Source of the DNA: Dysgonamonadaceae bacterium
Lineage (GTDB): Bacteria; Bacteroidota; Bacteroidia; Bacteroidales; Azobacteroidaceae
DNA: 53,270 bases
Assembly (NCBI GenBank): GCA_031289145.1
Contig: JAITQA010000070.1
Location: 1-53,270 of the forward strand
Direction of reading: 5' to 3'
Shown: positions 1 through 13,345 of the stretch, one piece after another
Position numbering within the stretch: position 1 is the first letter of the stretch
Layout: each line of letters starts with the position of its first letter
The notes under the pieces: generated by a model
Databases searched by the model: none
What the model was told of the DNA's origin: nothing
Seen by the model: only the letters and a program-made list of their open reading frames with translations
Position numbers and translations under genes: made by a program

Positions 1-48
1 TGAAAATTTCGCCTTTCACTTGACCTAAAAGTCCAGCAAATGGGGACA
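1..48. mobile_element. Possible right end of an insertion sequence (body lies left of the window)
   Basis: The first bases look like the tail of an open reading frame (residues ENFAFHLT, stop at 26-28), followed by a short end-like sequence finishing GGGGACA at 42-48. The other strand would then begin TGTCCCC, which fits the TG...CA ends of IS21-type elements. Only 48 bases are visible and no partner end or target duplication can be seen, so this is a guess. It would fit the accessory character of the adjoining locus. Confidence 0.22.
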
Positions 49-95
49 GTACTTTAAATAATACACAATAAATTTCATTTCTTCAATCTTTTTTG

Positions 96-103
96 TAATT
101 TTG
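96..103 (+). promoter_or_regulatory. -7 box (TAATTTTG) of the HTH regulator
   Basis: TAATTTTG matches the Bacteroidota -7 consensus TAnnTTTG. Transcription would start near 108, leaving an AT-rich leader of about 90 bases before the ATG at 199. The -33 element is weak (TTTC near 73-78). Confidence 0.5.
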
Positions 104-198
104 TCACGAAGTGTATTTATTGCGTTTTAATTTAAAAATATGATGTAAAAATAATAATAATAAAACCGTTTACTTGTTATTTAAAAAACTATAGACTT

Positions 199-513
199 AT
201 GAAAACAGTGCATATCGGCTCCATTATCAGGCAAAAGGTAAATGAGAGCGGAATATCCGTAAAGAATTTTGCAAAAATGTTACATTGCAGTGAGAGTAAT
301 GCCTACTCTATATTCAAGCGCAAGAGTATTGATTCGGAATTACTGGTGCTTATTTCCGAGATTTTAGGCTACGACTTCAAATCCGAATATGGAGAACCGT
401 GCAATACAGGCCAAGATTGCATTGTCCTTATTAGAACCAATAAAGCCAAGTTGAATGAATTACGGGAAGACAAGTCAATAGATTTCATCAGTTTCGAAAA
501 TTATTCCAAATAA
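199..513 (+). CDS. Small helix-turn-helix regulator of the RiPP locus
   Basis: This 104-residue protein has an N-terminal XRE/Cro-like helix-turn-helix at about residues 5-45 (IGSIIRQKV ... VKNFAKMLHCSESNAYSIFKRKSID). A hydrophobic helix (LLVLISEILGYDF) follows, then a polar tail with Cys68 and Cys74. Small HTH proteins of this layout commonly sit beside Bacteroidota peptide-maturation genes. Its position directly upstream of the precursor promoter suggests that it controls that promoter and the duplicate at 5121; this is inference. The coding sequence is AT-rich. Its last 38 codons are repeated, nearly unchanged, at 4968-5081. No ligand domain is visible, so what it senses is unknown. Confidence 0.8.
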   Translation: MKTVHIGSIIRQKVNESGISVKNFAKMLHCSESNAYSIFKRKSIDSELLVLISEILGYDFKSEYGEPCNTGQDCIVLIRTNKAKLNELREDKSIDFISFENYSK

Positions 514-549
514 TTAGTAATTATTTTCAAAAATAGTGTAACAAAATGG

Positions 550-580
550 TTGTTTGTCACAAAAACATCTCCTATCTTTG
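550..580 (+). promoter_or_regulatory. Promoter of the RiPP precursor operon
   Basis: A TTTG at 553-556 (with TTG at 550-552) precedes a perfect -7 box TATCTTTG at 573-580. Transcription should start near 585, giving a leader of about 255 bases before the precursor ATG at 843. The whole promoter is repeated with two substitutions at 5118-5148 in front of the maturase gene. Confidence 0.75.
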
Positions 581-842
581 TCACATAAACAATATTGACT
601 GATTTTTATACCAGACAAGGCTCGCCACCTTGTCAATATAAAAAAGCCTTCCCGGAAGGTTCAGACCCAATACGCATTATGAGAGTATAAACGAATATCA
701 CAGAAAGGCGCCGTAAAGGTAGGAATTAAGACTGAATCTCCAAAATTCTCTGCAAGGTCAGGCAGTTGGACGTGTCCGGTTTGCAAAATGCAGACTGGTT
801 GCGGGAAAAAAAGAAATGAACAAATAAAAAAATAACAATATT
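581..842 (+). ncRNA. Long structured 5' leader of the precursor mRNA (candidate regulatory RNA)
   Basis: This 262-base non-coding stretch lies between the promoter and the precursor. It contains a 7-bp hairpin GACAAGG/CCTTGTC (614-620 with 628-634), a 5-bp hairpin CCTTC/GAAGG (647-651 with 655-659), and a purine-rich conserved segment around 706-760. Only very short reading frames occur in it. The stretch is repeated at 5149-5365, including both hairpins. I do not recognise a known riboswitch. It could be a regulatory leader, a small RNA or simply a long untranslated region. Confidence 0.4.
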
Positions 843-904
843 ATGAATGGTTTGAAATTAAATGCTTTAGCAAATCAAACATTATCCGGAAAAGAAATGA
901 ACAA
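809..904 (+). repeat. 15-bp direct repeat bracketing the precursor start
   Basis: AAAAGAAATGAACAA occurs at 809-823 and again at 890-904, spaced by 81 bases. The first copy lies just upstream of the precursor ATG; the second lies inside the gene and encodes KEMN of the leader. Recombination between them would remove the start codon and the first part of the leader. That is exactly the state of the duplicate at 5362-5376. Confidence 0.85.
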
Positions 905-1055
905 CCTTTATGGAGCAGCAGGAAATTGTTGCTGTGGGTGTAGTTCTGAAGGATCCGGTGGGTCAAGTACAGGTGATAACTTTAAGGCTAATGATAAAAA
1001 AGACTTAAAGAGTCCCAATTGTAATCCTCTCCCTGAAGTAGTCATTGATCCATAA
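843..1055 (+). CDS. RiPP precursor peptide, GG-Bacteroidales type
   Basis: This 70-residue peptide has a leader and a Cys-rich core. The leader (residues 1-25) has the double-glycine pattern LSGKEMNNLYGA at 14-25, where Gly24-Ala25 replaces Gly-Gly, so a C39 peptidase would cut after Ala25. The 45-residue core begins AGNCCCGC (Cys29, 30, 31, 33), continues with a Gly/Ser-rich stretch (EGSGGSSTGDN) and ends SPNC(60)NPLPEVVIDP. The pattern matches the natural-product precursor family known from Bacteroidales radical SAM loci. The partner maturase and pseudo-rSAM genes lie at 5538 and 6803. No signal peptide is present, so export would need a dedicated transporter, and the one in this locus is broken. 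The final structure and activity are unknown. The only usable start is the ATG at 843. Confidence 0.85.
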   Translation: MNGLKLNALANQTLSGKEMNNLYGAAGNCCCGCSSEGSGGSSTGDNFKANDKKDLKSPNCNPLPEVVIDP

Positions 1056-1126
1056 AAGAACAAATGGATATAAAATCCACCAAGAGAATTATTCTAAAGC
1101 TCTGCTTTATGAGTAAATCAAGAAAA

Positions 1127-1175
1127 GGGGGTGTCATAAAAACATTCAAAGTATAATTTGACACATCCCTTTTTT
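1127..1175 (+). terminator. Terminator/attenuator between precursor and GLPGLI gene
   Basis: An inverted repeat GGGGGTGTCA (1127-1136) and TGACACATCCC (1159-1169) is followed by six T's (1170-1175). It lies 72 bases after the precursor stop and 30 before the next ATG. It probably reduces read-through, so that the precursor is made in excess of the downstream proteins. A diverged but still pairing version occurs at 5409-5454. Confidence 0.75.
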
Positions 1176-1205
1176 GTTAAGTATTAAATTATAAATAAAT
1201 ATATT

Positions 1206-2168
1206 ATGGGAAGAAATATTCTTTTTTTTATGTTACTCCTTTTAATGGAAATTGTTTATATTCGCGCTGTAGAAGCGCAATCCTCGTACCCTTCTCAATA
1301 TTCCTATTTAAGTAATTATATCGGGAAAGATCACATAAGAACATTAGATTCCGCCCGTCTGAAGATTACGTATTCCCTGAACTATTTGCCGGATAGTATG
1401 AATACTCAAAACATAATCAAAGACCGAAAAACATTATTAATAGGAGATTCTATAAAACATTTTTTCAGTGCATACGTTCGGCAAGCAGATTCCGTGCTTA
1501 CTAAGGATCATGATAAAGGGAAAAGTTCCGCTCCTATCAAGCGGGCGCCGGATATTCTGGGCGAGGGTTACAATATTTATACGGATTATCCGAATGTGGG
1601 CAAAAGAAGAGTTTTGGAATATATTACCGAATTATCTGCTTATGAATATGAAGAAGATAGGGAATTTCCAGAATGGATATTTGAAGATGAAACCTGTACG
1701 ATACTGGAATACTCCTGTCAAAAAGCAAGCGCCCATTACAGAGGGAGGGACTGGACTGTTTGGTTTTCCACTTCTGTGCCGCTGAATGTCGGACCTTGGA
1801 AGTTAGGTGGATTGCCCGGCTTGATTATGAAAGCATACGATAGCCGGAAACATTACCTGTTTGAATGTATCGGCATAGAACAGCTTAAGAAAAAAGAACC
1901 AATTATCAGGAAAATCAGATTCCATGATTATTCCAAATGTACAAGAGAAGAATATAGGAAAACCCAAGCACAATATTATAATGATTTTATTAATTTTGAA
2001 TTATCGTTGGGTTTTAACGTTAATATCGTAGATGATAACGGCAATGTTGTCGAGCATTTGGAAACACCCAATAAAAGATATGAAGAAATACATGTCATGT
2101 GGGGTACAAAAGTTAATATTGCGGACAGATACAGAAAAATACCGTATAATCCGATTGAATTAGAATAA
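1206..2168 (+). CDS. GLPGLI family secreted protein
   Basis: This 320-residue protein starts with a signal peptide (hydrophobic stretch about 4-22, likely cleavage near VEA-Q). It contains the family signature: a central block with CQKA (171-174), the YRGRDWTVWF region, GPWKLG and the name motif GLPGLI at 202-207. GLPGLI proteins are widespread, uncharacterised Bacteroidota envelope proteins, often encoded beside TonB-dependent receptors. Here the gene is followed after 6 bases by such a receptor (2175), and it lies between the RiPP precursor and its maturase. A role in handling, exporting or resisting the peptide is inference. Its last ten codons, including the stop, survive as a scar at 5502-5531, showing that this gene was part of the duplicated block. 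Confidence 0.85.
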   Translation: MGRNILFFMLLLLMEIVYIRAVEAQSSYPSQYSYLSNYIGKDHIRTLDSARLKITYSLNYLPDSMNTQNIIKDRKTLLIGDSIKHFFSAYVRQADSVLTKDHDKGKSSAPIKRAPDILGEGYNIYTDYPNVGKRRVLEYITELSAYEYEEDREFPEWIFEDETCTILEYSCQKASAHYRGRDWTVWFSTSVPLNVGPWKLGGLPGLIMKAYDSRKHYLFECIGIEQLKKKEPIIRKIRFHDYSKCTREEYRKTQAQYYNDFINFELSLGFNVNIVDDNGNVVEHLETPNKRYEEIHVMWGTKVNIADRYRKIPYNPIELE

Positions 2169-2174
2169 TACATT

Positions 2175-4835
2175 ATGTATCTATACTACAAATATATAGT
2201 TATGATTTTTGTATTTCTGGCGCCATTTTTAGGTAACGCTCAGGAACAAATCCTTATTCAAGGAACTATTATCGATAAGTCCGGCAAACCGATAGACGGC
2301 GTATTTGTAGTGTTAAGCCCTCAGAACAAAACAACAGTGTTAAGTTATTATTTATCAGATGCAAAAGGTCACTATCAGTTAAAATATTCCGGGAATGTTG
2401 ATACTTTACAACTTGTATTAACAAGTTTCGATTATGAGAAAGCCATCCGAATTATCTCAAAAACTTCACAAACAATCGATTTTAGTCTGGAATCTCAGCC
2501 TATTTCATTAAAAGAAGTCGTAATAAAAGCCGATCCGATTTCACAAAAGGGAGATACGATAAAATATCTGGTTTCGTCGTATGCCAATGAAAACGACCGG
2601 GTAATCGGAGATGTATTGAAAAAATTACCGGGCATCGAAGTTTTGTCCGATGGCTCTATTCAGTATAATGGAAAAGACATCAATAAATTTTATGTGGAAA
2701 ATTTAGATCTTTTGCAAGGTCGTTATGGTATAGCCACCAATAATATTTCCGTAAAAGATGTTGCAGCTGTTGAGGTATATGAAAATCACCAACCGGTAAA
2801 AGTCTTGACGGAAACAAATCCGACGGATAAAGCCGCAATTAACTTGAAATTAAAGGATAGCGCCAAAGGCGCTTTGGGAGCTATGGCTCAATTAGGCATC
2901 GGTGGAAAGCCCTTTATTTGGGATAATGAATTAGTGTCGCTCTATTTTGCTAAAAAAAAGCAAAATATCAATACCTACAAAGGAAATAACAGCGGAAATA
3001 ATGTGGAGAAAGAACTCACGGCATTTTATTCCGACGGTACAAACTCATCATATAACACGGGGCAGTTTTTATCCGTTCTTTCTCCTACTCTTCCCCCAAT
3101 CAACGATCAACGCTATTTGTTTAATGATGTGCATACTGCATCAAGTAATTTTTTATTCCTTTTACCGGATGATTATGAATTGACAACAAATATAGCTTAT
3201 CAGAATGATCGCCGTACTAAAAACAGTTATTCCAATTCCACTTATTTCCTTCCGGACAAAGAACCGCTCGTTCTTGAGGAAATAACAGGAATTTCGCAAA
3301 GAATCAATAAATTGGATGCCGCTATAAAAGCCTCATCCAATAAAGAGGATTTCTATTTTGTCAATTCGCTGAATACAAATGCTCTATGGAATACAAATAA
3401 AGGCAATACTTTTACGGGAGACTCAATTGCTCAAAACCTGAAAACGGATTACTATAACCTGTCCAACACATTCAATTTGATTAAAACCTTTATGGATGAG
3501 AAGAAGTTTCAAATGCGTTCTTATAACGGATATATACAAACGCCACAAGAACTTAATATTTTCCCCGGTATGTATGAGGAAGTTATGACAAATAATAAAC
3601 CGTACGACAAATTAATACAATACACAAAATACAGTAATTTTACATCCAACTCCTCCGCATCTCTTTATTTTACAAAAAACAGGTTTTCACAAAGATATTC
3701 GCTTGGGCTGGATGTAGATATCCAGAATTTGAATTCATCATTAAAACCTTTTTCCGACAATACTATTATCAATACGCCTGATTCGTTGAAGAATGATTTA
3801 TTCTGGCAAAAGTACAAAATATTCTTTACGGCGTATTATCGTTATCAATGGCATGCTTTTGATATAATAACGGAACTCCCGTTGAGCTATAATTTTTTGC
3901 ATATCGATGACCGGTTCCCTCAAAAAAAACGAACAGACAATGAGATTCTGTTTAATCCTTTCATATCGGTTCTTTACAAATTGAATGGATATTTATCTAT
4001 TAAATTCAGCAATATTTTTAATCATGATATTGGGAGTCTTCAAAATACTTATACCGGATATATCCTGAACAATTACCGAAATTTCAACAGGAACGACGGA
4101 CAATTGTACGGATATAAAAGCAATTACTCAACTCTGACGAGTAATTATCGCAATGTGCGCAAAGCATTGTTTGCCCAAATGGCTTTGGTTTATGAAATAT
4201 TTACGTCCGACATGATTCGTGAACAATATTTTATCGGTGACTTACAGATACAGAGCCTTATTAACAAACCAAGTATTACAAAAACATACAGCATAAACGG
4301 AAGCGTTAGCAAAAATATCTATGCCTTGCGTAGTACCGTTTCCTTGTCGGCAAACTACAACGATATATTTTCATCTCAAATAAATCAGGGAGAATTGGTC
4401 GATTACAGATATTCGATATATGCAATTAAACCTAAAATAGAATCTAATCTTGCCTCTTGGGGTAGCTTGAGTTACGCTTCCGTATGGAGTAAAAGTAAAA
4501 CCCGTATGGAAAACCAAGATTTTCATTATCCGGCTATTTCTTCCATATATAACCGGTTAAGTTTCTATTTATTTCCGATAAAAAAAGTCGGTATCGGGAT
4601 TAATTATGAGCATTATTATGACAGCGCTTTATCCGGAGAAGAAAAAAACATGTCATTTACCGACCTGAATTTGAAATACAAATTTAAAAGAATTGATTTC
4701 CTGCTTAGTTGGACGAATATCTTAAATACCAAGCAATACACTCGTTCGTCGTTCGCCGATACCGGCAGGTTTGTTTATATCTACGAAATACGCCCTTCCC
4801 AAATCTTATTGACGGCAAGATTCAAATTGTTTTAA
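2175..4835 (+). CDS. TonB-dependent-receptor-like outer-membrane protein with carboxypeptidase-regulatory domain
   Basis: This 886-residue protein has a signal peptide (about 1-22, ending GNA-Q). A carboxypeptidase D regulatory-like domain follows at about 27-105 (GTIIDKSGKPIDGVFVVLSP...), then the linker SLKEVVIKADP, a plug-like region at about 120-235 (VIGDVLKKLPGIEVLSDGSIQYNGKDINKFYV) and a long beta-barrel of alternating aromatic strands ending in ...LLTARFKLF. The layout is that of receptors paired with GLPGLI proteins. It is probably co-transcribed with the GLPGLI gene (6-base gap) from the precursor promoter, past the attenuator at 1127. It may carry the peptide or a target molecule across the outer membrane; the substrate is unknown. 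The gene is AT-rich like the rest of the island and appears intact. Confidence 0.8.
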   Translation: MYLYYKYIVMIFVFLAPFLGNAQEQILIQGTIIDKSGKPIDGVFVVLSPQNKTTVLSYYLSDAKGHYQLKYSGNVDTLQLVLTSFDYEKAIRIISKTSQTIDFSLESQPISLKEVVIKADPISQKGDTIKYLVSSYANENDRVIGDVLKKLPGIEVLSDGSIQYNGKDINKFYVENLDLLQGRYGIATNNISVKDVAAVEVYENHQPVKVLTETNPTDKAAINLKLKDSAKGALGAMAQLGIGGKPFIWDNELVSLYFAKKKQNINTYKGNNSGNNVEKELTAFYSDGTNSSYNTGQFLSVLSPTLPPINDQRYLFNDVHTASSNFLFLLPDDYELTTNIAYQNDRRTKNSYSNSTYFLPDKEPLVLEEITGISQRINKLDAAIKASSNKEDFYFVNSLNTNALWNTNKGNTFTGDSIAQNLKTDYYNLSNTFNLIKTFMDEKKFQMRSYNGYIQTPQELNIFPGMYEEVMTNNKPYDKLIQYTKYSNFTSNSSASLYFTKNRFSQRYSLGLDVDIQNLNSSLKPFSDNTIINTPDSLKNDLFWQKYKIFFTAYYRYQWHAFDIITELPLSYNFLHIDDRFPQKKRTDNEILFNPFISVLYKLNGYLSIKFSNIFNHDIGSLQNTYTGYILNNYRNFNRNDGQLYGYKSNYSTLTSNYRNVRKALFAQMALVYEIFTSDMIREQYFIGDLQIQSLINKPSITKTYSINGSVSKNIYALRSTVSLSANYNDIFSSQINQGELVDYRYSIYAIKPKIESNLASWGSLSYASVWSKSKTRMENQDFHYPAISSIYNRLSFYLFPIKKVGIGINYEHYYDSALSGEEKNMSFTDLNLKYKFKRIDFLLSWTNILNTKQYTRSSFADTGRFVYIYEIRPSQILLTARFKLF

Positions 4836-4919
4836 TTGTCGTTTTAGATAAAAAATTCTCAACAAATCATTTGCTTTTGACGAAAATTTATACTTTGTCG
4901 ACTATGTGATATTTTATTT

Positions 4920-5081
4920 ATGAATACTTGTGGTTTTTCTTTTTTATTTGGTGATAATCGGAAACCTTGCAATACAGGCCAAGATTGCATTGTCCTTATT
5001 AGAATCAATAAAGACAAGTTGAATGAATTACGGGAAGACAAGTCAATAGATATACTCAGTTTCGAAAATTATTCCAAATAA
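4920..5081 (+). pseudogene. Truncated duplicate of the HTH regulator (C-terminal tail only)
   Basis: From 4968 the sequence copies codons 68-104 of the regulator at 199-513, up to the same TAA at 5079-5081, with a handful of changes (for example RTNKAKL to RINKDKL and DFISF to DILSF). The HTH half is absent. An ATG at 4920 happens to be in frame, giving a 53-residue ORF with 16 unrelated N-terminal residues. Its reading frame is intact, so a short tail-only protein is possible. A duplication scar is more likely. Confidence 0.75.
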
Positions 5082-5117
5082 TTAGTAATTATTTTCAAAA
5101 ATAGTGTAACAAAATAG

Positions 5118-5148
5118 TTGTTTGTCACAAAAACATCCCCTATCTTTG
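5118..5148 (+). promoter_or_regulatory. Duplicated promoter now serving the maturase genes
   Basis: TTTG (5121-5124) and TATCTTTG (5141-5148) repeat the precursor promoter with the same spacing. Transcription should start near 5153, giving a leader of about 385 bases before the maturase ATG at 5538. Confidence 0.7.
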
Positions 5149-5341
5149 TCACATAAACAATATTGACTGATTTTTATACTAAACAAGGCTCGCCACCTTG
5201 TCAATATAAAAAAGCCTTCCCGGAAGGTTTAGACCCAATACGCATTATTAGAGTATAAACGAATATCACAGAAAGGCGCCGTAAAGGTAGGAATTAAGAC
5301 TGAATCTCCAAAATTCTCTGCAAGGTCAGCTGGTTTGCAAA

Positions 5342-5437
5342 ATGCAGACTGGTTGCGGAAGAAAAGAAATGAACAACCTTTATGGAGCAGTGAGTAAATC
5401 AAGAAAAGGAGATGCTATAAAAACATTCAAAGTATAA
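5342..5437 (+). pseudogene. Remnant of a second precursor gene
   Basis: The codons for KEMNNLYGA of the RiPP leader survive at 5363-5389, but everything before them (the start codon) and the whole Cys-rich core are deleted. The fused frame reads from an ATG at 5342 (or 5369) and ends ...SRKGDAIKTFKV at 5437, with no core-like residues. The left junction falls in the 15-bp direct repeat seen at 809/890. Confidence 0.8.
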
Positions 5438-5454
5438 TTTGATACATCTCTTTT
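5409..5454 (+). terminator. Duplicate attenuator upstream of the maturase
   Basis: GAGATG plus TAT (5409-5418, one bulged C) can pair with ATA-CATCTC (5442-5450), followed by four T's. Arm bases differ from the copy at 1127-1175 on both sides, yet pairing is kept, which suggests selection on the structure. Confidence 0.5.
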
Positions 5455-5501
5455 CTGTTTTCTGTTAAGTATTAAATTATAAATAAATATATTGAGAAAT
5501 A

Positions 5502-5531
5502 ATACCGTATAATCCGATTGAATTAGAATAA
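5502..5531 (+). pseudogene. C-terminal scar of a second GLPGLI gene
   Basis: The ten codons IPYNPIELE-stop are identical to the end of the GLPGLI gene at 2139-2168; the remaining roughly 930 bases are gone. The next ATG (5538) follows after 6 bases, as in the source copy. Confidence 0.85.
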
Positions 5532-5537
5532 TAGATT

Positions 5538-6788
5538 ATGAACGAAAAAAAATATCTGACAAAAGAAAATATTGAATTCTCTTTAGCCGACTTAAAGCAA
5601 CTCACATTTGAAATAACCGACGCCTGCAATTTGCGTTGTAAATATTGTGGATACGGAGAGTTTTACGACGATTACGACAAACGTGAAGATAAGATGATTA
5701 ATACCCAAGCGTCTCTTCGTTTGATAGACTATTTATCCTCTTATTGGAATTCAGAGAGAAATATTTCCTTGAATAAAAATGTGTATATCAGTTTTTATGG
5801 CGGAGAACCTTTAATCAATATGAAATTTATTAAAACCGTTATAGATTATATAAAGAATTTGAATTGCTCATGCCGGAATTTTACTTTTAGCATGACTACC
5901 AATGCGATTCTACTAAAAAAATACATGGACTATTTGGTTGAAAACCAGTTTAGTTTACTCATCAGTTTAGATGGCAATGAATATAATACTTCTTATCGGG
6001 TTGATAAAACAGGAAAGCCTGCATTTCATGAAATTATAGAAAATGTGGATGCTTTACAGAAAAAGTATCCCGACTATTTTAAAGAAAAAGTAAATTTCAA
6101 TGCTGTTTTGCACAATAGAAATTCGGTAGAAGAAATATTCCAATTCATAAAGGAAAAATATAATAAAGTTCCAAGTATAGGAGAACTGAATAGCACAGGT
6201 ATCCGACCGGATAAAAAAACTTTATATATGGAGACTTATCGTAATTCATACGAGAGTTTGCATCAGTCTGAAAATTATGAGCTTATAGAAAAAGAAATGT
6301 TCCTTCAAGCCCCCGACTATAATTTTCTCACAATTTTTATCCATCAATACAGTGGTTTCGTCTATAGAGATTATTCCGATTTGCTTTTCGACAAGTCGTC
6401 TGTAAAGAAAATCCCAACAGGCACTTGTCCTCCTTTTGGTAAGAAAATGTTTGTCACGGTGAATGGAAAAATCTTACCATGTGAAAAAATAGGTCATAAA
6501 TACGCATTAGGTGAAGTTACGGAAAAAGGCGTAAATATGGATTTACAAGCTATTGCAGATAAATACAATGCTTATTATGCAAAAATGAACAATCAATGCA
6601 GCAAATGTTACAGGGTAAAAAGTTGCACACAGTGCATTTTTAATATAGATGATTTGGACGAGAAAGCAATTTGTTACGGATATACAAATAAACAAGAATT
6701 TTCAGAATATTATGAAAGAAATATGGATTTTTTGCGGGAACATCCGGAAGATTATTATCGCATTATGGAAGAAGTTTTTTTTGAATAA
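5538..6788 (+). CDS. Radical SAM/SPASM peptide maturase, GG-Bacteroidales type
   Basis: This 416-residue enzyme has the radical SAM cluster motif CNLRCKYC (Cys30, 34, 37) and the SAM-binding GGEP at 88-91. A C-terminal SPASM domain has Cys297, Cys315 and the run C354-x2-C357-x5-C363-x2-C366-x12-C379, enough for auxiliary iron-sulfur clusters. Family members use SAM radical chemistry to install crosslinks or thioethers on Cys-rich or other peptide cores. The expected substrate is the precursor at 843-1055. The gene is AT-rich, lies 14 bases upstream of the pseudo-rSAM gene and probably forms an operon with it from the duplicated promoter at 5118. All key cysteines are present, so it looks functional. 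The exact bond it makes cannot be told from sequence. Confidence 0.85.
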   Translation: MNEKKYLTKENIEFSLADLKQLTFEITDACNLRCKYCGYGEFYDDYDKREDKMINTQASLRLIDYLSSYWNSERNISLNKNVYISFYGGEPLINMKFIKTVIDYIKNLNCSCRNFTFSMTTNAILLKKYMDYLVENQFSLLISLDGNEYNTSYRVDKTGKPAFHEIIENVDALQKKYPDYFKEKVNFNAVLHNRNSVEEIFQFIKEKYNKVPSIGELNSTGIRPDKKTLYMETYRNSYESLHQSENYELIEKEMFLQAPDYNFLTIFIHQYSGFVYRDYSDLLFDKSSVKKIPTGTCPPFGKKMFVTVNGKILPCEKIGHKYALGEVTEKGVNMDLQAIADKYNAYYAKMNNQCSKCYRVKSCTQCIFNIDDLDEKAICYGYTNKQEFSEYYERNMDFLREHPEDYYRIMEEVFFE

Positions 6789-6802
6789 ACATTTATGAAA
6801 AT

Positions 6803-8029
6803 ATGAAAGAATCGGATAAAAAATTCTGGTTGTATATCGAACCTGATGTATATTGCAATATAAAGGACAATAAATTATTTTTGTACAAAACAAAAAATAA
6901 TACTGTTATAGAGAACACGTCGAGTGAAATTATCTCATTGATTCAATCACTATATGAAAAACATAATCTTGGAGCTGTATATTTTGATGGGGAAAATCTA
7001 AAAAATACAATATTCAGCGATTTCATTGATGAATTTTGTAGAAAACAAATGGGAAATATCGTCGATACAAGATTTGTAACGAAAAAGCCGATACAACTCA
7101 TGCCTGTATTAAATCTACAACATGATATAGAAAAAAATAAAGACTCTGTAGGAGAAGGGATATTGAGTTATTTAACAGAAGTCAATTTATATATTAATCA
7201 AGTGTGTTTAGTCAATTGCCATTTCTGTAATGATTATTACCGGCAAAATTTGTGTTGTACTAAGAAAAATGAAAAAGATGAAATATCGTCCGTTAACACA
7301 CTAAAAAAGTTATTGGAACAAATTAAATACTCACCTGTCAGTAAATTAAATATTTTAGGCGGCAATATTCTACAACATCCCTATATTAAAAATTTTATAC
7401 CCGCGTTATCGGACTTTAAAGAATTTACTTATTTATGGATACACTACAAAAATATAGTTATTCATAAAGGAGATTTTTACGATTTTAAATATGTAATTCC
7501 TGTAACATTTCCTATTGATAAAACCTCTTTTACAAATTGTATTTCTTTAATGAAAGACAAACAAGTTTCTTATCATTTTTTTATTACAAATAAAAATGAA
7601 TATCATCAATTGGAACAACTTACCACAGAAAATGAAATCAAAGATTATAAAATAAGTCCATTTTACACAAAAAACAATCAAGCATTTTTCGAGGAGAACA
7701 TTTATTTGAACAAAGAGGATATTTTTGTTGAAAGAATCCCTTTCAGAAAAATTTTTGCTCATCAAAAGCTGAATACAATTTCTTTTGGTTCATTGACAAT
7801 TATGCCTGATGGTAACGTTTATGCCAACGTAAACAGTCCTGTTATCGGAAATATTAAAACTGACTCTATCTTATGTTTAATAGATAAAGAGATGCGTATT
7901 AATACCGCGTGGCGTAAAATTCGCAATAAAAAACCTTGCAACGACTGTTCATATCAATATCTTTGCCCTTCGCCTTCCAACTACGAATTAGCTATCGGGA
8001 AACCCAATCTTTGCCATGTAAAACCATGA
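6803..8029 (+). CDS. Pseudo-radical-SAM partner protein of the RiPP system
   Basis: This 408-residue protein has an N-terminal domain of about 100 residues (FWLYIEPDVYC ... NTVIENTSSEIISLIQSLYE) with the feel of a small strand/helix recognition domain. A divergent radical-SAM-like barrel follows, then a SPASM-like tail with Cys379, 382, 388 and 404. Relatives in GG-Bacteroidales loci are described as pseudo-rSAM partners. This copy nevertheless keeps a CX3CX2C motif, CLVNCHFC (Cys135, 139, 142), while the usual GGEP is only GGN (LGGNIL, 186-189). It probably helps bind the precursor for the maturase at 5538, or does a second step. The stop overlaps the start of the C39 fragment (ATGA at 8026-8029). 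GC content is very low, near 30 percent. Confidence 0.75.
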   Translation: MKESDKKFWLYIEPDVYCNIKDNKLFLYKTKNNTVIENTSSEIISLIQSLYEKHNLGAVYFDGENLKNTIFSDFIDEFCRKQMGNIVDTRFVTKKPIQLMPVLNLQHDIEKNKDSVGEGILSYLTEVNLYINQVCLVNCHFCNDYYRQNLCCTKKNEKDEISSVNTLKKLLEQIKYSPVSKLNILGGNILQHPYIKNFIPALSDFKEFTYLWIHYKNIVIHKGDFYDFKYVIPVTFPIDKTSFTNCISLMKDKQVSYHFFITNKNEYHQLEQLTTENEIKDYKISPFYTKNNQAFFEENIYLNKEDIFVERIPFRKIFAHQKLNTISFGSLTIMPDGNVYANVNSPVIGNIKTDSILCLIDKEMRINTAWRKIRNKKPCNDCSYQYLCPSPSNYELAIGKPNLCHVKP

Positions 8030-8160
8030 GCCGTTCTTTCCCCCACTACACCCAGCACGACACTGCCGATTGCAGCCTCACCTGCCTCCGCAAGATAGCC
8101 GCCCATTACGGTCACCCTTATTTGTTGGAAGAATTGAGGGAGCTGATTATTTATTGCTAA
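8026..8160 (+). pseudogene. N-terminal stub of a C39 peptidase/ABC exporter
   Basis: Only 44 codons remain. They match the start of peptidase-containing ABC transporters: QHDTADCSLTCLRKIAAHYG holds the oxyanion Gln and the catalytic Cys of the C39 motif (usually DCGxxCL; here DCS). The catalytic His/Asp, the membrane domain and the ATPase are missing; the frame ends LRELIIYC-stop at 8160 and the next gene is unrelated. The start overlaps the pseudo-rSAM stop, so it was the next gene of the operon. Such proteins cut the double-Gly leader and export the peptide. The stub is clearly GC-richer than the genes before it. A working exporter would have to be encoded elsewhere. Confidence 0.8.
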
Positions 8161-8196
8161 ATCAGCAATCTAAGTGAATATGATAAAAAAAAACAC

Positions 8197-8204
8197 TAAA
8201 TTTG
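8197..8204 (+). promoter_or_regulatory. -7 box (TAAATTTG) for the receptor at 8223
   Basis: TAAATTTG fits TAnnTTTG and puts the transcription start near 8210, 13 bases before the ATG at 8223. A longer frame starting at TTG 8202 would begin inside this box, so that start is rejected. No clear -33 element is seen. Confidence 0.55.
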
Positions 8205-8222
8205 CCATATAATACGTATGGA

Positions 8223-10568
8223 ATGGGAAAAGGTTTATTTATCAAGCAACAAATTTACACCTTAGCAATTTTCATCTTGCTCACCGGAAATAGCGCACTA
8301 CTCCAAGCGCAGCATATTTCCGGGAAAATTGTAAATACGAACCGGGTTCCGATTGCGTTTGCGAATATCATGCGCTTGCATCCTTCCGATTCCTCCTTCA
8401 TTGACGGAACAATCAGTTCGGAAGCGGGAACTTTCTTTTTTGAAAATATACCTGAAGGTCGGGAAATAGTAAAAATTTCCTGTTTGGGTTATTTGACGCG
8501 CTTTATTGCTGCCGAAACCAATCGGCAGCAAATCGACTGGGACGAAATTATACTGTTGGAAGATACTACACAATTGAGCGAAGTAGTTATTACGGCAGCC
8601 GTACCGCTATTTTCGCGGAATAGTTCCGGTCTGACGACCCATGTAAGCGGCACTTTATTGTCGTCGGCAGGGACGGCAATTGACGTAATCAAGCAAATTC
8701 CGGGTGTTTTGATAAAAGAAAATGAGATGGCGGTTTTTGGCAAAGGCGCTCCGGTGGTCTATATCAACAACCGTAAAATGTATGATAAAAGCGAATTGCA
8801 AAGAATTCAATCTTCCGATATCGCTACCATCGAACTGCTTACCAACCCCGGCGCGAAATACGATGCCGAGGGAAAAGCAGTGCTGATTATCCACGTCAAA
8901 CAAAATAAGGAAAACGGATGGGCGGTTCAAGTAAGCAATCGGCTGCAAAAAAGAAAGTATTTCGGCGATGAAGGAAGTGCAGGCATCAGTTATACGCAGG
9001 ATAATTTTTCATTCTTTTTGACTTGTAACCAATCGGTTGACAAAAATAGTTGGAATGCAAAGATTGATTACATCATTTATGCAGATACCGTCTGGAAACA
9101 ATTGATGGAACTGCCTCAGCTACATAAAATGCAAGACACGCATTTTACGGCAGGAATAGACTGGTCTATCGGTTCGAAGCACGCACTCGGATGGCAATAC
9201 CAAGGCTATACCGGCAGTGAGCAAATCAATTCGGACGGGTTGTATGCGGTATGGGCCGATACGGAAAGTTATGATAAAATAAGTACGAAAAATACGGCCA
9301 AAGAGCGTCCCGACCAAAATTTACTAAATATGTTTTACAAAGGAAATTACAGTGAAACATTCCATTTGCAACTGAATATGGACTACCTGAACAATCGCAA
9401 TAAAATCAATCAATTTACCCGGGAATTATCTACCGTTGAAGACCGGGATGTAAATATGAAAAGTCAATCCGATTTTCAGCTGTATGCCGGAAAACTTATC
9501 ATGGATTACCGTTTGGGAGAAAACGGCAATGTAACATTCGGCGGGGAATACAATCAAATAAAAGGCGCCGGATTTTTACTGAACCCTGAAAATTATGTAG
9601 AAAGCAGTTATTATCGGAATGAAGAAGAAAAAGCGGCGGGATTTTTGAGTTACAATACACAATTGGGTAAGTTACAAGTCCGGTTGGGAGGCCGTTACGA
9701 ATACGCTCGTATGAACGCAACGGAAGAAAACAGGCAAGAGAAAACAGACCGGACGCATCAAGGATTTTATCCGGATGTATCCTTTTATCAGACAGTCGGA
9801 AACACGCAAATGGGATTGGATTTTTCCAAGAAAATCCGACGCCCTTCTTTTGCTTTACTCAATAGCGGCAATTTCTATGCAAATCGCTTCCTGACAGAAA
9901 AAGGGAATCCTCTTCTCCAACAGGAAGGTATTTACCAAATAGATTATCAGTTGAAATATAAAATAGCGGATTTGAAGATAGGATATGTTTACATCAAGCA
10001 TCCGATCGCTTTTTCCATTGAAAGCATGGAAGACCATCCTACCCAAACCCTTATGCAATATATCAATTTCCCCAAATACCGGGAATTGAACGCGCTTCTT
10101 GCAAGCAATTTTACCTGTAAAATTTGGCAGAGCAGAATCAATATGGCTTTGAAAAGCCCCTTTTTTAAAGTCAATTACTTGAACGAAAAAACAAAACGCA
10201 ATCAGACTTCATTTTCATTCGATTTTTTCAATGATATTGTTTTACCAAAGGAGACTGTTTTTTCCCTTAATTTCAATTACCAGGGGAAATCGAATAATTA
10301 TGCGATTGCATACAATGAATATAAATGTATAGAAGCCGGTATCCGAAAATATTTTTTCAGCAAGAAATTGTTGGTCAACCTGCAATTCAGCGACCTGTTC
10401 GACTGGGTAAATACCCAAACCACAGTGGAAATCAATACGATTTCCTACAAAAAGAGAGTCAAATACGAATCTCGTTCTGTGCTACTCACGCTGAGTTACC
10501 GATTCAATGATTACAAAAAGAAATACAGGGGCGAAAATGCCGCCGCTGATGATATAAACAGGTTGTGA
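8223..10568 (+). CDS. TonB-dependent receptor / outer-membrane beta-barrel protein
   Basis: This is a 781-residue protein when started at the ATG at 8223. It has a signal peptide (IYTLAIFILLTGNSALLQA-Q), a carboxypeptidase-regulatory-like domain at about 28-105 (ISGKIVNTNRVPIAFANIMRL), the linker SEVVITAA, a plug domain at about 125-225 (IDVIKQIPGVLIKENEMAVFGKGAPVVYINNRKM) and a long barrel typical of the OMP_b-brl_3 family. The substrate is unknown. It lies just after the RiPP island, has higher GC and its own promoter, and is probably not part of that system. Its stop codon abuts the stop of the converging TPR gene with no base between them (10568/10569). Confidence 0.85.
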   Translation: MGKGLFIKQQIYTLAIFILLTGNSALLQAQHISGKIVNTNRVPIAFANIMRLHPSDSSFIDGTISSEAGTFFFENIPEGREIVKISCLGYLTRFIAAETNRQQIDWDEIILLEDTTQLSEVVITAAVPLFSRNSSGLTTHVSGTLLSSAGTAIDVIKQIPGVLIKENEMAVFGKGAPVVYINNRKMYDKSELQRIQSSDIATIELLTNPGAKYDAEGKAVLIIHVKQNKENGWAVQVSNRLQKRKYFGDEGSAGISYTQDNFSFFLTCNQSVDKNSWNAKIDYIIYADTVWKQLMELPQLHKMQDTHFTAGIDWSIGSKHALGWQYQGYTGSEQINSDGLYAVWADTESYDKISTKNTAKERPDQNLLNMFYKGNYSETFHLQLNMDYLNNRNKINQFTRELSTVEDRDVNMKSQSDFQLYAGKLIMDYRLGENGNVTFGGEYNQIKGAGFLLNPENYVESSYYRNEEEKAAGFLSYNTQLGKLQVRLGGRYEYARMNATEENRQEKTDRTHQGFYPDVSFYQTVGNTQMGLDFSKKIRRPSFALLNSGNFYANRFLTEKGNPLLQQEGIYQIDYQLKYKIADLKIGYVYIKHPIAFSIESMEDHPTQTLMQYINFPKYRELNALLASNFTCKIWQSRINMALKSPFFKVNYLNEKTKRNQTSFSFDFFNDIVLPKETVFSLNFNYQGKSNNYAIAYNEYKCIEAGIRKYFFSKKLLVNLQFSDLFDWVNTQTTVEINTISYKKRVKYESRSVLLTLSYRFNDYKKKYRGENAAADDINRL

Positions 10569-12767
10569 TTACAACTTGTACAAAAGACTATCCAAGATAA
10601 TCGGAATATCTGCCGCCTTCACACCGGCGTTCAACAAATCGGGAATATCTGCCGAAAAAGATTCGGTAAATTTTTCTATTGAGTCCCCTTGTTCATCCAT
10701 GGCCGATTTGTATAAATTGAGTGCATTCCGGTTGTTTCCCAGCGCCAGTTCTGTGTGACCGGCATTGAGGTAATCAATTGTATTCGGATTGTTTTCCAAT
10801 ATCTTACCATAATAATCTTTTGCTTCTATGTATTTCCCGGTCAAAAAGGAACACCAAGCAATCGGACGCCAAGCTTTTTCTTTATTCTTAGACAGATATT
10901 CTACCTTGAAATAACATTTCAGCGCTTCGGAATAATCCTTCAGTTCCAAATGACAATGCCCGATATTGAGTTGGATACTCAGGTTATCCGGATTTAGCTG
11001 TTCGGCTTTCCGGTAATATTCTAAAGCATCATTGGGTTGTTTCAGTACCCGGTAACAATGGGCTATCTTTTTGATTGTCCAGGAATTATTAGCATTGAAC
11101 AGTTCGGCTTTCCGGTAATATTCCAAGGCTTCCGCTAATTTTCCCTGCATCTGAAGACAATAACCTTTCTTTTCCAGGAGGACTGCATCATTGGGTTGAA
11201 CCTGCAACAGGTCGTCGAAAATACCGGCAGCCTCCTTGAAATAATTCCGGTTTAAATAATATTCTCCGATAATCATGCGATTTTCCGGCTCGGAAATAAA
11301 TTGAGCGATAGTCGGAACCGAATGAAAATCAGGTTTCATGCCAAAGATATCTTCAAAACCGGCACGTTTCGGATACAATTTGTAGAAACGGTATAAGTCC
11401 TGAATGTATTGACGGGCAACCGGATGTATTTTATTTTTATTATCCGGAAGTTCTTCTTTTATCATTTCCCGGACGGCTTCGGATTCGTCCGAAAACTGAC
11501 TGCTAATCATGTTTCGATACATTTCCGGCATATTTGAAATACTGAAATAAAAGGAATACTTGTCGGAATTGCACAACATGGACGATTCCATCAATAATTT
11601 AACGAACCCGCCTGCTTCCTCTTTCCCGCTATTTTCGCTGCGAGTAGTGAAAGGGACAAACCAGTTGCTTATCTCGTTGAAAAAAGAATAATTTTTCAGG
11701 TGGAGGAAAGAAGAATGCATGACATCCGCTCCTTCCATTTGTAATTCGGAGAACTCTTGCAGTTTGTCGGTAAGACCGGCATCTTCAATTAGTTGTTGCC
11801 AATCCGGGTTTTTGTCTTCGAAACCGGAATCGCTCATCAAATCATCTAACTTAATTTTTGAACCGATTTTCGGACTGATTTTTAACATTTCCGGCAGAAT
11901 TTCTTCTTGGATGATACGTGTAATCTTCTCTGTTTCACGGCTAAGGATAAATTGAAGGATAATATTCCGTATATCATTGATAAACTGCCGGTCTTCCGAC
12001 AACAACACCAAGCGGTTATGAATGTTCGGATAAAGAAAAAGCCTTTTGTCGTAGCGACGGATAAAAAGCATGATACCTGTCAGTGCGCGTTGACGGATTT
12101 CTTCGTTTTTATTGGCGGCGGCGTCCAGCAACAATACCGCCTTTTTTTCATCGAAAGTTTCCTCAAGACTGAGGGTGACAGCCGAAATAATCAGGCTAAG
12201 CAAAGTATTCGGATGCAAACGATTATTTAACACTTTCAGCCAAATTTCTTTTTCGGATGAATTCCATGTATCGCTCAGCCAGATTTTACGAAATATTTTA
12301 GCTTCTATTTTTTCCTTTTCTTGCGCTAAATTACGGAGTTTATGCGCTTTTTCCGCACCTTCTTCCAGCAAATCGACCAAAGTAATTTTACTGACAGTAT
12401 CATCCATTATTTCGACTAAGAAACCGGATGATTCGGGCAGTTGCATTTCGAACGTTCTCCGGTTGTCGTAGAAGCATGTCGGAGAGTGTATGGTATTGAG
12501 TTGCAGCATTGTCTGGTCTGCTACGGCGTAAATCGACCGGAGTAAATCGTTGTATATCTTTTCTTGCTGTGGGTCTTTCACGCCATCGGCCAAATACCGG
12601 AGCATCCGCTGATAATTGTCCGACAAATCTGTAAGCTGTTCGCTCAACCGCCAGTTTTGTATGTTCGACAGTAGAAAAGCCAGCAAGTCAAAAGCTTTTT
12701 TCAGCCTTTTATGTTCTAAAGCCTCCCTGATATTCAGGAAGCTGTCTTGAAGTTCTTGTTTTGTCAT
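10569..12767 (-). CDS. Tetratricopeptide-repeat protein
   Basis: This 732-residue cytoplasmic protein has no signal peptide. The N-terminal 490 residues are helical and without recognised motifs. About six TPR units follow at roughly residues 495-695 (for example [51 protein letters not shown]), a scaffold for protein contacts. The start is set at the ATG whose last bases overlap the tdk stop (ATGA, 12764-12767); an in-frame upstream ATG at 12800 lies inside tdk. It is the last gene of the operon with recA and tdk, and no specific function can be given. Confidence 0.8.
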
Positions 12768-13345
12768 GATAAAATATTTTTTTTGAAACAAGTACGACAC
12801 AATGGCTGATATTCTTCCTTTTCGCCTAAGAATACCAATTTTTCGTTGTTTACCAAGCGGTGGGAGTAGCCTGCCAATTTACCACATTCTACACAAACGG
12901 CGTGAACTTTGGTTACGTCATCGGCGATAGCGCAAAGCGCAGGCATCGGGCCAAACGGGTTTCCTTTGAAATCCATATCCAATCCGGCCACGATAACGCG
13001 AACGCCCTGGTTGGCCAATTGGTTGCATATCATGATAATTCCTTCGTCAAAAAATTGAGCTTCGTCAATACCAATCACATCAATTCCGCCCGAAAGAAGG
13101 AGTATGTTGCCGGAATGTTCCACCGGTGTACACGGAATCGCATTTTGGTCGTGCGACACAATGTTTTCTTCCGAAAACCGGGTATCCATGGCCGGCTTGA
13201 AAATTTCGACGCTTTGTTTGGCAAACTGGGCGCGTTTCATCCTGCGGATAAGTTCTTCCGTTTTACCGGAGAACATCGATCCGCAGATGACTTCTATTGA
13301 ACCGACTTTGCCGGTGTCAAAGAACCGGTTTTCAGAGAAACGCAT
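12764..13345 (-). CDS. tdk: Thymidine kinase (type II)
   Basis: This enzyme phosphorylates thymidine to dTMP in the salvage pathway. The 193-residue protein has the P-loop GSMFSGKT (about 22-29), the DEAQFF motif ([11 protein letters not shown]) that provides the magnesium-binding Asp and the general-base Glu, and zinc-binding CVEC and CRTC pairs near the C-terminus, as in the TK1-like family. The ATG at 13345 shares one base with the recA stop (TGATG). A GTG three bases further up is also in frame, but the overlap favours the ATG. It is translationally coupled to recA upstream and to the TPR gene downstream. Confidence 0.95.

Follow-up and report, generated by a model that had tools for sequence, protein, structure and literature searches.

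A candidate leader RNA before the precursor and maturase genes of a GG-Bacteroidales-type peptide cluster

Described systems and the present locus

Among described systems for ribosomally synthesized and post-translationally modified peptides (RiPPs), the closest to the locus studied here is the GG-Bacteroidales system, whose maturase, precursor and partner are recognized by the profiles TIGR04148, TIGR04149 and TIGR04150, respectively. We analyzed a 53,270-nucleotide (nt) stretch from a Dysgonamonadaceae bacterium (contig C151, bases 1–53270, here called the window; genome of 3.94 Mb in 169 contigs), in which a structured element of ∼190 nt, probably a leader RNA, lies in front of both a precursor gene and a radical S-adenosylmethionine (SAM) maturase gene. 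The locus is a GG-Bacteroidales-type radical SAM RiPP cluster and a further member of that system, with maturase and partner well over their cut-offs and the same layout of leader peptide and core. It differs in three ways: the precursor scores below cut-off and carries LYGA where the GG site would be, the exporter is reduced to a stub, and a separate leader RNA copy stands in front of the maturase. An earlier, sequence-only reading had already assigned the locus to this system. For the two enzymes that assignment holds by a wide margin; the precursor falls just under the TIGR04149 cut-off and is therefore called TIGR04149-like only.

Other described clusters share some of these features. A sactipeptide-like cluster of Bacteroides fragilis 3_1_12 likewise has a TIGR04149-type structural gene and a radical SAM pair, but its four genes include one for a lipoprotein that follows the structural gene, and the accessible part of its description does not mention a leader RNA (PMC4573289). 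The clostridial CcpM, RumMC and PapB-type maturases are among the next-best families for the window maturase (192.2, 130.1 and 105.3 bits, respectively) and share the Cys-rich core, although the window maturase is far below the cut-offs of those families. Pseudo-rSAM partners also occur in the Bacteroidales clusters BGC3, BGC4 and BGC5, and BGC3 and BGC5 put on record Bacteroidales clusters that have no C39 peptidase–ATP-binding cassette (C39-ABC) transporter; unlike the present account, the main text of that paper contains the words ‘TonB’ and ‘untranslated’ 0 times and has no ‘GLPGLI’ (PMC10352776).

RiPP operons have mostly been described with protein regulators. For the leader RNA, searches of the open literature gave no description that we recognized, but one candidate, HMP2_1881. 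Like the leader, it is structured, comes from Bacteroidetes and lies near radical SAM domains; it differs in being 108 bp long and in coming from human gut and stool data (PMC8040213, as far as the accessible part tells). Compared by description only, HMP2_1881 may be an earlier sighting of the same or a related RNA. The other relevant RNA is DUF805b of Rfam (RF02914), a small hairpin classed as cis-regulatory, which in several relatives lies directly behind the 3′ module of the leader and before the peptide gene. It measures 35 nt as against the 193-nt pseudoknotted structure upstream of it, and the window has no match to it. As far as Rfam 15 and the open literature tell, the leader is a new motif.

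Structure and distribution of the leader RNA

The leader lies on the coding strand between a candidate promoter and the precursor start codon (position 843), and ends 39 nt before that codon. Its architecture comprises P1, a pseudoknot, P2, P3, P4 and P6 (Table 1). DNA searches with 395–842 and 514–842 recovered related stretches in relatives, where they precede other peptide genes. In alignment A1, which holds 13 sequences aligned with MAFFT without regard to structure and on which helices were then drawn by eye, 13 of the 26 pairs show two-sided change and 89.6% of cells are paired, compared to 33–46% in slid controls. The covariation score of A1 is 0.258 (0.162 ± 0.016 when shuffled), a value that none of 500 shuffles reached; the same was true (0/500 each) of the larger alignments A3 and A4, which cover one leader half apiece. 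Compensatory base changes thus support a conserved leader structure. Across the cells, G-U outnumbers A-C by 44 to 14, favoring the plus strand as the one that folds.

The covariance models include neither the pseudoknot nor P4, whose register shifts between sequences. The behavior of the pseudoknot in rows outside the training set of model R1 is a cleaner test than A1, A3 and A4. In alignment A6 (28 rows), all four pseudoknot pairs are present in 12 of the 13 R1 training rows and in 12 of the 15 others. Its first pair reads C-G in 13 rows, U-A in 8 (L112, L120 and L155 carry this compensating change), A-U in 2, G-U in 1 and U-G in 1, and is broken in 3; there are 11 two-sided cells where shuffling gives 3.3 (0/500 shuffles). 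A6 omits six hits in which the 5′ half is missing or badly aligned: L119, L156, L158, L161, L162:5051 (the same as L120:2052) and L152:1982.

The boxes at 553–580 fit the Bacteroidetes-type promoter consensus. Of 28 leader places, 16 have a TAnnTTTG –7 box in the 60 nt that precede the leader, as against 4.0% of 5000 random windows. No plus-strand intrinsic terminator is listed within 611–803. A known riboswitch or other Rfam RNA was rejected for lack of a model match: in Rfam 15, window bases 1–10600 at E ≤1 gave no credible match, DUF805b included, and 540–860 at E ≤10 gave only bxd_3 (E 4.6, 18.4 bits versus a gathering score of 70). A conserved small open reading frame was likewise rejected: segment lengths differ among relatives by non-multiples of three and so give no sign of coding inside the leader, judged by these lengths and not by a coding-potential program.

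R1 found 28 places at E ≤0.01 in 17 of 117 relatives. Among 45 genomes of the family, model R2 found the leader in 14; among 38 of the genus, R3 found it in 12, with 5 of the 16 R3 places weak (E 6.7e-4 to 9.3e-3). Two R3 hits, L204 and L205, were dismissed, as R1 gave 11.6 bits at L204 and nothing at L205; L155 was lost with the default filter and recovered with filters off. In a sample of the order, R1 matched 8 of 393 genomes. In a sample of the phylum, R2 matched 1 of 395, the own genome only, and since few candidates were scored per genome this search leaves room for weak relatives. Outside the family, the leader occurs in two other families of the order. In G579 (R1 128.2 bits) it is followed by a double-glycine peptide and then a maturase of FxsB/YhhB-like type; in G739, from a third family, two leader copies precede double-glycine peptides, and the locus also has a C39-ABC exporter. 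Three weaker hits, L213–L215, also from other families, consist of the 5′ module and pseudoknot only, two of the three with a pseudoknot A-U pair absent from other rows, and the genes behind them were not recognized as RiPP genes. The 5′ module may predate the link to RiPPs and extend beyond it.

To describe the genes behind the leader, we considered 25 places, made up of 22 of the 28 R1 places (E 2.1e-8 or better), L203 and two in L212; the six hits in L157–L162 (E 2.8e-7 to 1.5e-3) are outside the counts of 22 and 25. A small peptide with a double-glycine (or LYGA) motif follows directly, at 40–69 nt, at 14 of the 25 places, compared to 1.6% of 4000 random positions drawn from the same kind of loci. 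By eye, the leader at L118, L119 and L120 is followed by a small Cys peptide whose beginning resembles a signal peptide. A maturase lies within 7 kb downstream at 13 of the 22 places. The families over cut-off are TIGR04148 and grasp-with-spasm (TIGR04192, TIGR04193); Clo7bot-like and mycofactocin-like radical SAM proteins and FxsB/YhhB-like proteins score below cut-off. Some reference proteins for these downstream genes came from the same loci and match themselves, although their families were named independently. Several precursors behind the leader have no TIGR04149 match (L110, L112 at 10680, L155, L212 at 3522), and others score under the cut-off of 25 (L115 18.2, L154 19.5, L114 16.8 and L203 17.4 bits). 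Repeated leader copies on one contig are seen in the window, L112, L114, L120/L162 and L212.

Above-threshold DUF805b hits number 8 and fall in 7 loci (L111, L114, L120 twice, L154, L156, L203, L212); at L110 and at a second L212 copy the score is below threshold. None is listed at threshold in L055, L109, L112, L113, L115, L116, L118, L119, L152, L153 or L155, and none of 10 further loci has it above threshold, the same ten being R1-negative. At L114 (8284–8317) the hairpin also stands alone before a second precursor. Because DUF805b follows the leader in some relatives only, the full leader appears, from the sequences compared, to be modular and to be partly known in the relatives that carry the hairpin.

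R1 also pointed to a new place in the own genome, L055 on contig C112 (E 2.2e-10), where the leader precedes a second TIGR04149 precursor. The genome has 7 TIGR04149 matches, 6 of them over cut-off; among them, the L055 precursor (32 bits) has the same core type as the window precursor. This sister cluster (8896–13213) runs leader RNA, TIGR04149 precursor, GLPGLI and then TBR1, the receptor-like protein also found in the window. Of its maturase, ∼26 N-terminal codons that resemble a maturase are left, fused in frame to TBR1 (by eye). The maturase on C151 may, on sequence grounds, serve both precursors.

Genes and duplicated cassette of the locus

Table 1. Features of the window, with coordinates, strand and supporting evidence
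Feature	Position	Strand	Evidence or detail
XRE/Cro-type helix-turn-helix protein, 104 amino acids (aa)	199..513	+	PF01381 19.7 bits, under cut-off 23
Candidate Bacteroidetes-type promoter	TTTG 553-556, TAnnTTTG 573-580	+	30 nt before leader RNA
Leader RNA copy A	611..803	+	covariation; model R1 168.8 bits (itself an R1 training sequence); no Rfam match
Leader copy A helices	P1 615-620/628-633; P2 646-650/656-660; P3 711-712/718-719; P6 776-784/790-798		
Leader copy A pseudoknot	623-626/707-710		P1 loop pairs with downstream GGCG
Precursor peptide, 70 aa, 5 Cys	843..1055	+	TIGR04149 22.8 bits, cut-off 25, E 6.5e-5
Terminator-like hairpin with U-run, between precursor and GLPGLI	1121..1175	+	-18.6 kcal/mol, z -4.69, 0/200 shuffles as stable
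GLPGLI family protein, 320 aa	1206..2168	+	TIGR01200 177.4 bits, cut-off 50
TBR1, receptor-like outer-membrane protein, CarboxypepD_reg domain, 886 aa	2175..4835	+	PF13715 35.5 bits, cut-off 32.2
Copy B, duplicate of 395-2177	4963..5540	+	alignment blocks; repeats D1, D2, D4, D7
Leader RNA copy B, before maturase	5179..5357	+	R1 140.8 bits; alignment
Precursor-gene relic, 30 nt, in copy B	5361..5390	+	identical to 889-918
Copy B of terminator-like hairpin	5402..5456	+	-12.3 kcal/mol, z -3.24, 2/200 shuffles as stable
Radical SAM/SPASM peptide maturase, 416 aa	5538..6788	+	TIGR04148 572.7 bits, cut-off 300
TIGR04150 partner (‘pseudo-rSAM’), CxxxCxxC kept	6803..8029	+	TIGR04150 416.9 bits, cut-off 250
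Decayed C39 peptidase–ABC exporter remnant, 44 codons	8026..8160	+	PF03412 26.4 bits, cut-off 22
TBR2, CarboxypepD_reg / OMP_b-brl_3 outer-membrane protein, 788 aa	8202..10568	+	PF14905 151.4 bits

The maturase gene is preceded by a reduced duplicate of the region in front of and including the precursor and GLPGLI genes. Copy B aligns with copy A in the blocks 395–761, 776–806, 889–918, 1110–1205 and 2135–2177, and the first 367 bases differ at 12 positions; it lacks 762–775, 807–888, 919–1109 and 1206–2134. This loss amounts to 1216 bases, 1112 of them coding, so that copy B retains 64 of 1176 coding bases of the precursor and GLPGLI genes and 381 of 485 non-coding bases. It holds the tail of the helix-turn-helix (HTH) gene, the promoter, the leader RNA, the hairpin, an intergenic piece and the GLPGLI tail. 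Within the leader, 14 nt are gone between P4 and P6, and the helices are intact. By sequence, what stands in front of the maturase is a set of control elements (promoter, leader RNA and hairpin) stripped of their genes.

All parts that the sequence-only reading had named are present at the positions it gave; it did not include the duplication of 395–2177, the leader RNA or the second cognate precursor. Its overall interpretation stands as to family, cysteines and broken exporter; an ‘unusual parts list’ is not supported, and the labels ‘pseudo-rSAM’ and ‘TonB-type receptor’ fit in part. The supposedly unusual parts, GLPGLI and a receptor-like protein, co-occur in relatives with or without a maturase: GLPGLI is found in 3 and TBR1 in 5 of 20 annotated related loci, and both lie behind the leader RNA, with the next 7 kb free of a maturase, at L109, L118, L119, L153 and L055. 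TBR1 had been labeled a TonB-type receptor; it has a CarboxypepD_reg-like domain over cut-off, but no plug or barrel profile matches it at E ≤0.1.

The window precursor ends its leader peptide in LYGA (positions 22–25) and has a core of the form CCCGC...GGSST...AN. By eye, its layout of leader-peptide motif and core CxCxC..GGSS...N..AN is matched in L052, L055, L069 and others. The maturase is the genome's sole match above the TIGR04148 cut-off, and its closest named relatives are L050–L052, metagenome-assembled genomes (MAGs) of Bacteroidales/Prevotellaceae, which we take to be from termite gut, judging from isolate names alone. That all catalytic cysteines are intact, as previously proposed, is borne out by their invariance in relatives: Cys30/34/37 of the CxxxCxxC motif and Cys297 in 17 of 17 aligned sequences, and the SPASM cysteines Cys315/354/357/363/366/379 in all 16 sequences that have residues at those columns. 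Modification of the peptide is probable, with thioether bonds by analogy to related SPASM maturases. Elsewhere, L077 has a 1664-aa frame (1068–6062) that includes a TIGR04148-type maturase domain (355.9 bits), an unusual fusion, and L053 and L054, MAGs labeled Candidatus Aminicenantes and thus outside Bacteroidota, have TIGR04148-like maturases and Cys-rich precursor-like frames.

The name pseudo-rSAM implies loss of the cysteines of the radical SAM cluster. For the partner this name is right as a profile label, yet the protein has a full CxxxCxxC motif (Cys135, Cys139, Cys142). Each of these columns is Cys in 9 of 16 aligned sequences, the triad being missing in 7 of 16. Given this motif, the partner may itself be active as a radical SAM enzyme, the second of the cluster, as far as its sequence indicates. 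It also has four C-terminal cysteines.

The exporter gene starts at 8026 with an ATGA overlap with the partner gene, and its stub covers positions 2–38 of the 133 in profile PF03412. Its active-site motif reads DCSLTC, where 18 C39 proteins, chosen by a motif search that favors such sequences, have DCG. In L069 a C39-ABC gene starts directly after and overlapping the partner gene, and the stub is 66.7% identical to it over 39 residues; this match to an exporter N-terminus indicates that an ordinary cluster has lost its exporter. The exporter is thus broken, as had been said, and no C39-ABC exporter is resident in the cluster. A transporter elsewhere, also suggested before, could feasibly take its place. 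C39 matches in the genome number 10; 7 span at least 120 of the 133 profile positions, and 5 of the 7 lie in open frames of 713–739 aa. The protein encoded on contig C152 combines a C39 domain with ABC membrane and ABC ATPase domains, and HlyD is encoded next to it. Two matches (contigs C144 and C3), which might represent a broken-off remainder of the exporter, begin at profile positions 41 and 43. The sequences suggest that the peptide, if exported at all, probably leaves via another C39-ABC transporter of the genome.

The HTH protein at 199–513 is a likely local regulator. Its homologs lie directly upstream of the leader RNA on the same strand at L111, L113 and L156, and L112 has small divergent HTH genes twice (the reference proteins here come from the same locus and match themselves). 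By eye, a direct repeat, TTTGTCACAnAAACA, in 553–590 overlaps both promoter boxes; it is a possible operator of the HTH protein. At the other end of the cluster, TBR2 is probably a separate transcription unit; in L115 a homolog with 50% identity lies between maturase and C39-ABC genes. The remaining window consists of housekeeping-like frames, identified by eye and without a profile scan (recA-, ATP synthase- and metH-like), and contains no tRNA.

Interpretation of the leader RNA

We favor, with a probability of about 0.7, the reading that the locus is a GG-Bacteroidales-type RiPP cluster whose leader serves as a cis-regulatory RNA for secreted-peptide operons. Transcription would start just before P1, at about 587–592, from the box at 573–580, and the transcribed leader would act in cis on expression of such operons. 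With no plus-strand terminator-like site inside the leader, attenuation there is less likely. Binding of a metabolite or protein would most likely act on translation initiation or mRNA stability, the leader changing state upon a signal and thereby permitting or preventing translation or degradation of the peptide mRNA. The hairpin that follows the precursor gene (1121–1175) would let only some transcripts continue into the downstream genes and may set the ratio of precursor to downstream products. Copy B would provide the maturase with the same start and the same leader, and precursor and maturase, with one leader before both, would be co-regulated despite the split operon.

Several observations weigh against this interpretation. 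The leader was not found at the genome's other five TIGR04149 loci, and most relatives have no match to it (R1, 17/117; R2, 14/45 of the family). The peptide pattern was written to admit the LYGA of the window, without which the count is 13 of 24; 7 of the 25 places have no small frame directly behind the leader, the 50-aa frame at L117 is probably a chance one, and L116 and L117 have no downstream marker genes. As for structure, the helices were picked by eye on sequences that were later counted, which favors the A1, A3 and A4 statistics; one pair falls on a gap column in one of the half-leader alignments; and L158 and L161, both omitted from A6, lack the full set of four pseudoknot pairs in their alignment. 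For 580–845 the minimum-energy fold beats shuffled sequences by a small margin (z –1.72), and no helix masking the start codon is visible. P2 with its A-run resembles a terminator on the minus strand in both copies (659–647 and 5227–5215).

The minus-strand sites invite a different explanation, that the element works as DNA or antisense, either as a minus-strand terminator made of P2 and the A-run or as a recombination site that duplicates cassettes. Leader-plus-peptide cassettes have indeed been duplicated repeatedly. However, the excess of G-U over A-C cells applies to the plus-strand reading, the –7 box is in plus orientation, and the pseudoknot segments flank P2, so that a minus-strand RNA ending at P2 could not form the pseudoknot; we consider this explanation very improbable. 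The paired copies on single contigs would also fit a history in which duplicated RiPP cassettes carried non-functional upstream DNA along by common descent. This, too, seems highly unlikely, because non-functional DNA would not be expected to keep base pairs amid base changes, the peptides behind the leader differ and their maturases belong to different families, and copy B lost its coding DNA and kept the leader.

That the RiPP cluster is dying, with its exporter gone, a cassette half deleted, receptor genes moved and nothing expressed, is an unlikely but more serious prospect. The exporter stub with its altered active-site motif, the deletions in copy B and the missing maturase of the sister cluster L055 would all agree with it. 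On the other hand, intact frames encode the maturase, its partner, the precursor, the GLPGLI protein and the receptor-like protein, every maturase cysteine is present, and the deletions spared the promoter, leader and hairpin. It is also rather unlikely that the leader is simply the reported HMP2_1881 or a longer form of DUF805b. The former was expressed in 13 of the 13 instances in which it was found, according to the accessible part of its report (PMC8040213), and its genomic neighborhood is similar; the RF02914 hairpin lies 2–10 nt after the 3′ module in some relatives. Against DUF805b, the window leader has no match to it, and the 35-nt hairpin falls outside the 193 nt modeled.

Returning to the cis-regulatory reading, a broader form of it holds that in Bacteroidales the production of secreted, modified peptides is commonly switched by this new class of leader. 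The sequences make this conceivable at somewhat less than even odds. Such a switch would cover double-glycine precursors of at least four maturase kinds (TIGR04148, Clo7bot-like, grasp-with-spasm and FxsB/YhhB-like) as well as small Cys peptides that begin like a signal peptide. As a search tag, the leader already has a use, as covariance models reach precursor genes that TIGR04149 misses or under-scores. With one TIGR04148 maturase and two cognate precursors on separate contigs, the cell might co-regulate them through the leader. If the interpretation is right, a structured RNA common to chemically different peptide systems would offer a handle on the timing of peptide production in Bacteroidales. 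A single signal could then turn on a cell's entire peptide arsenal, and copying of the cassette in front of the maturase would place that enzyme under the same signal.

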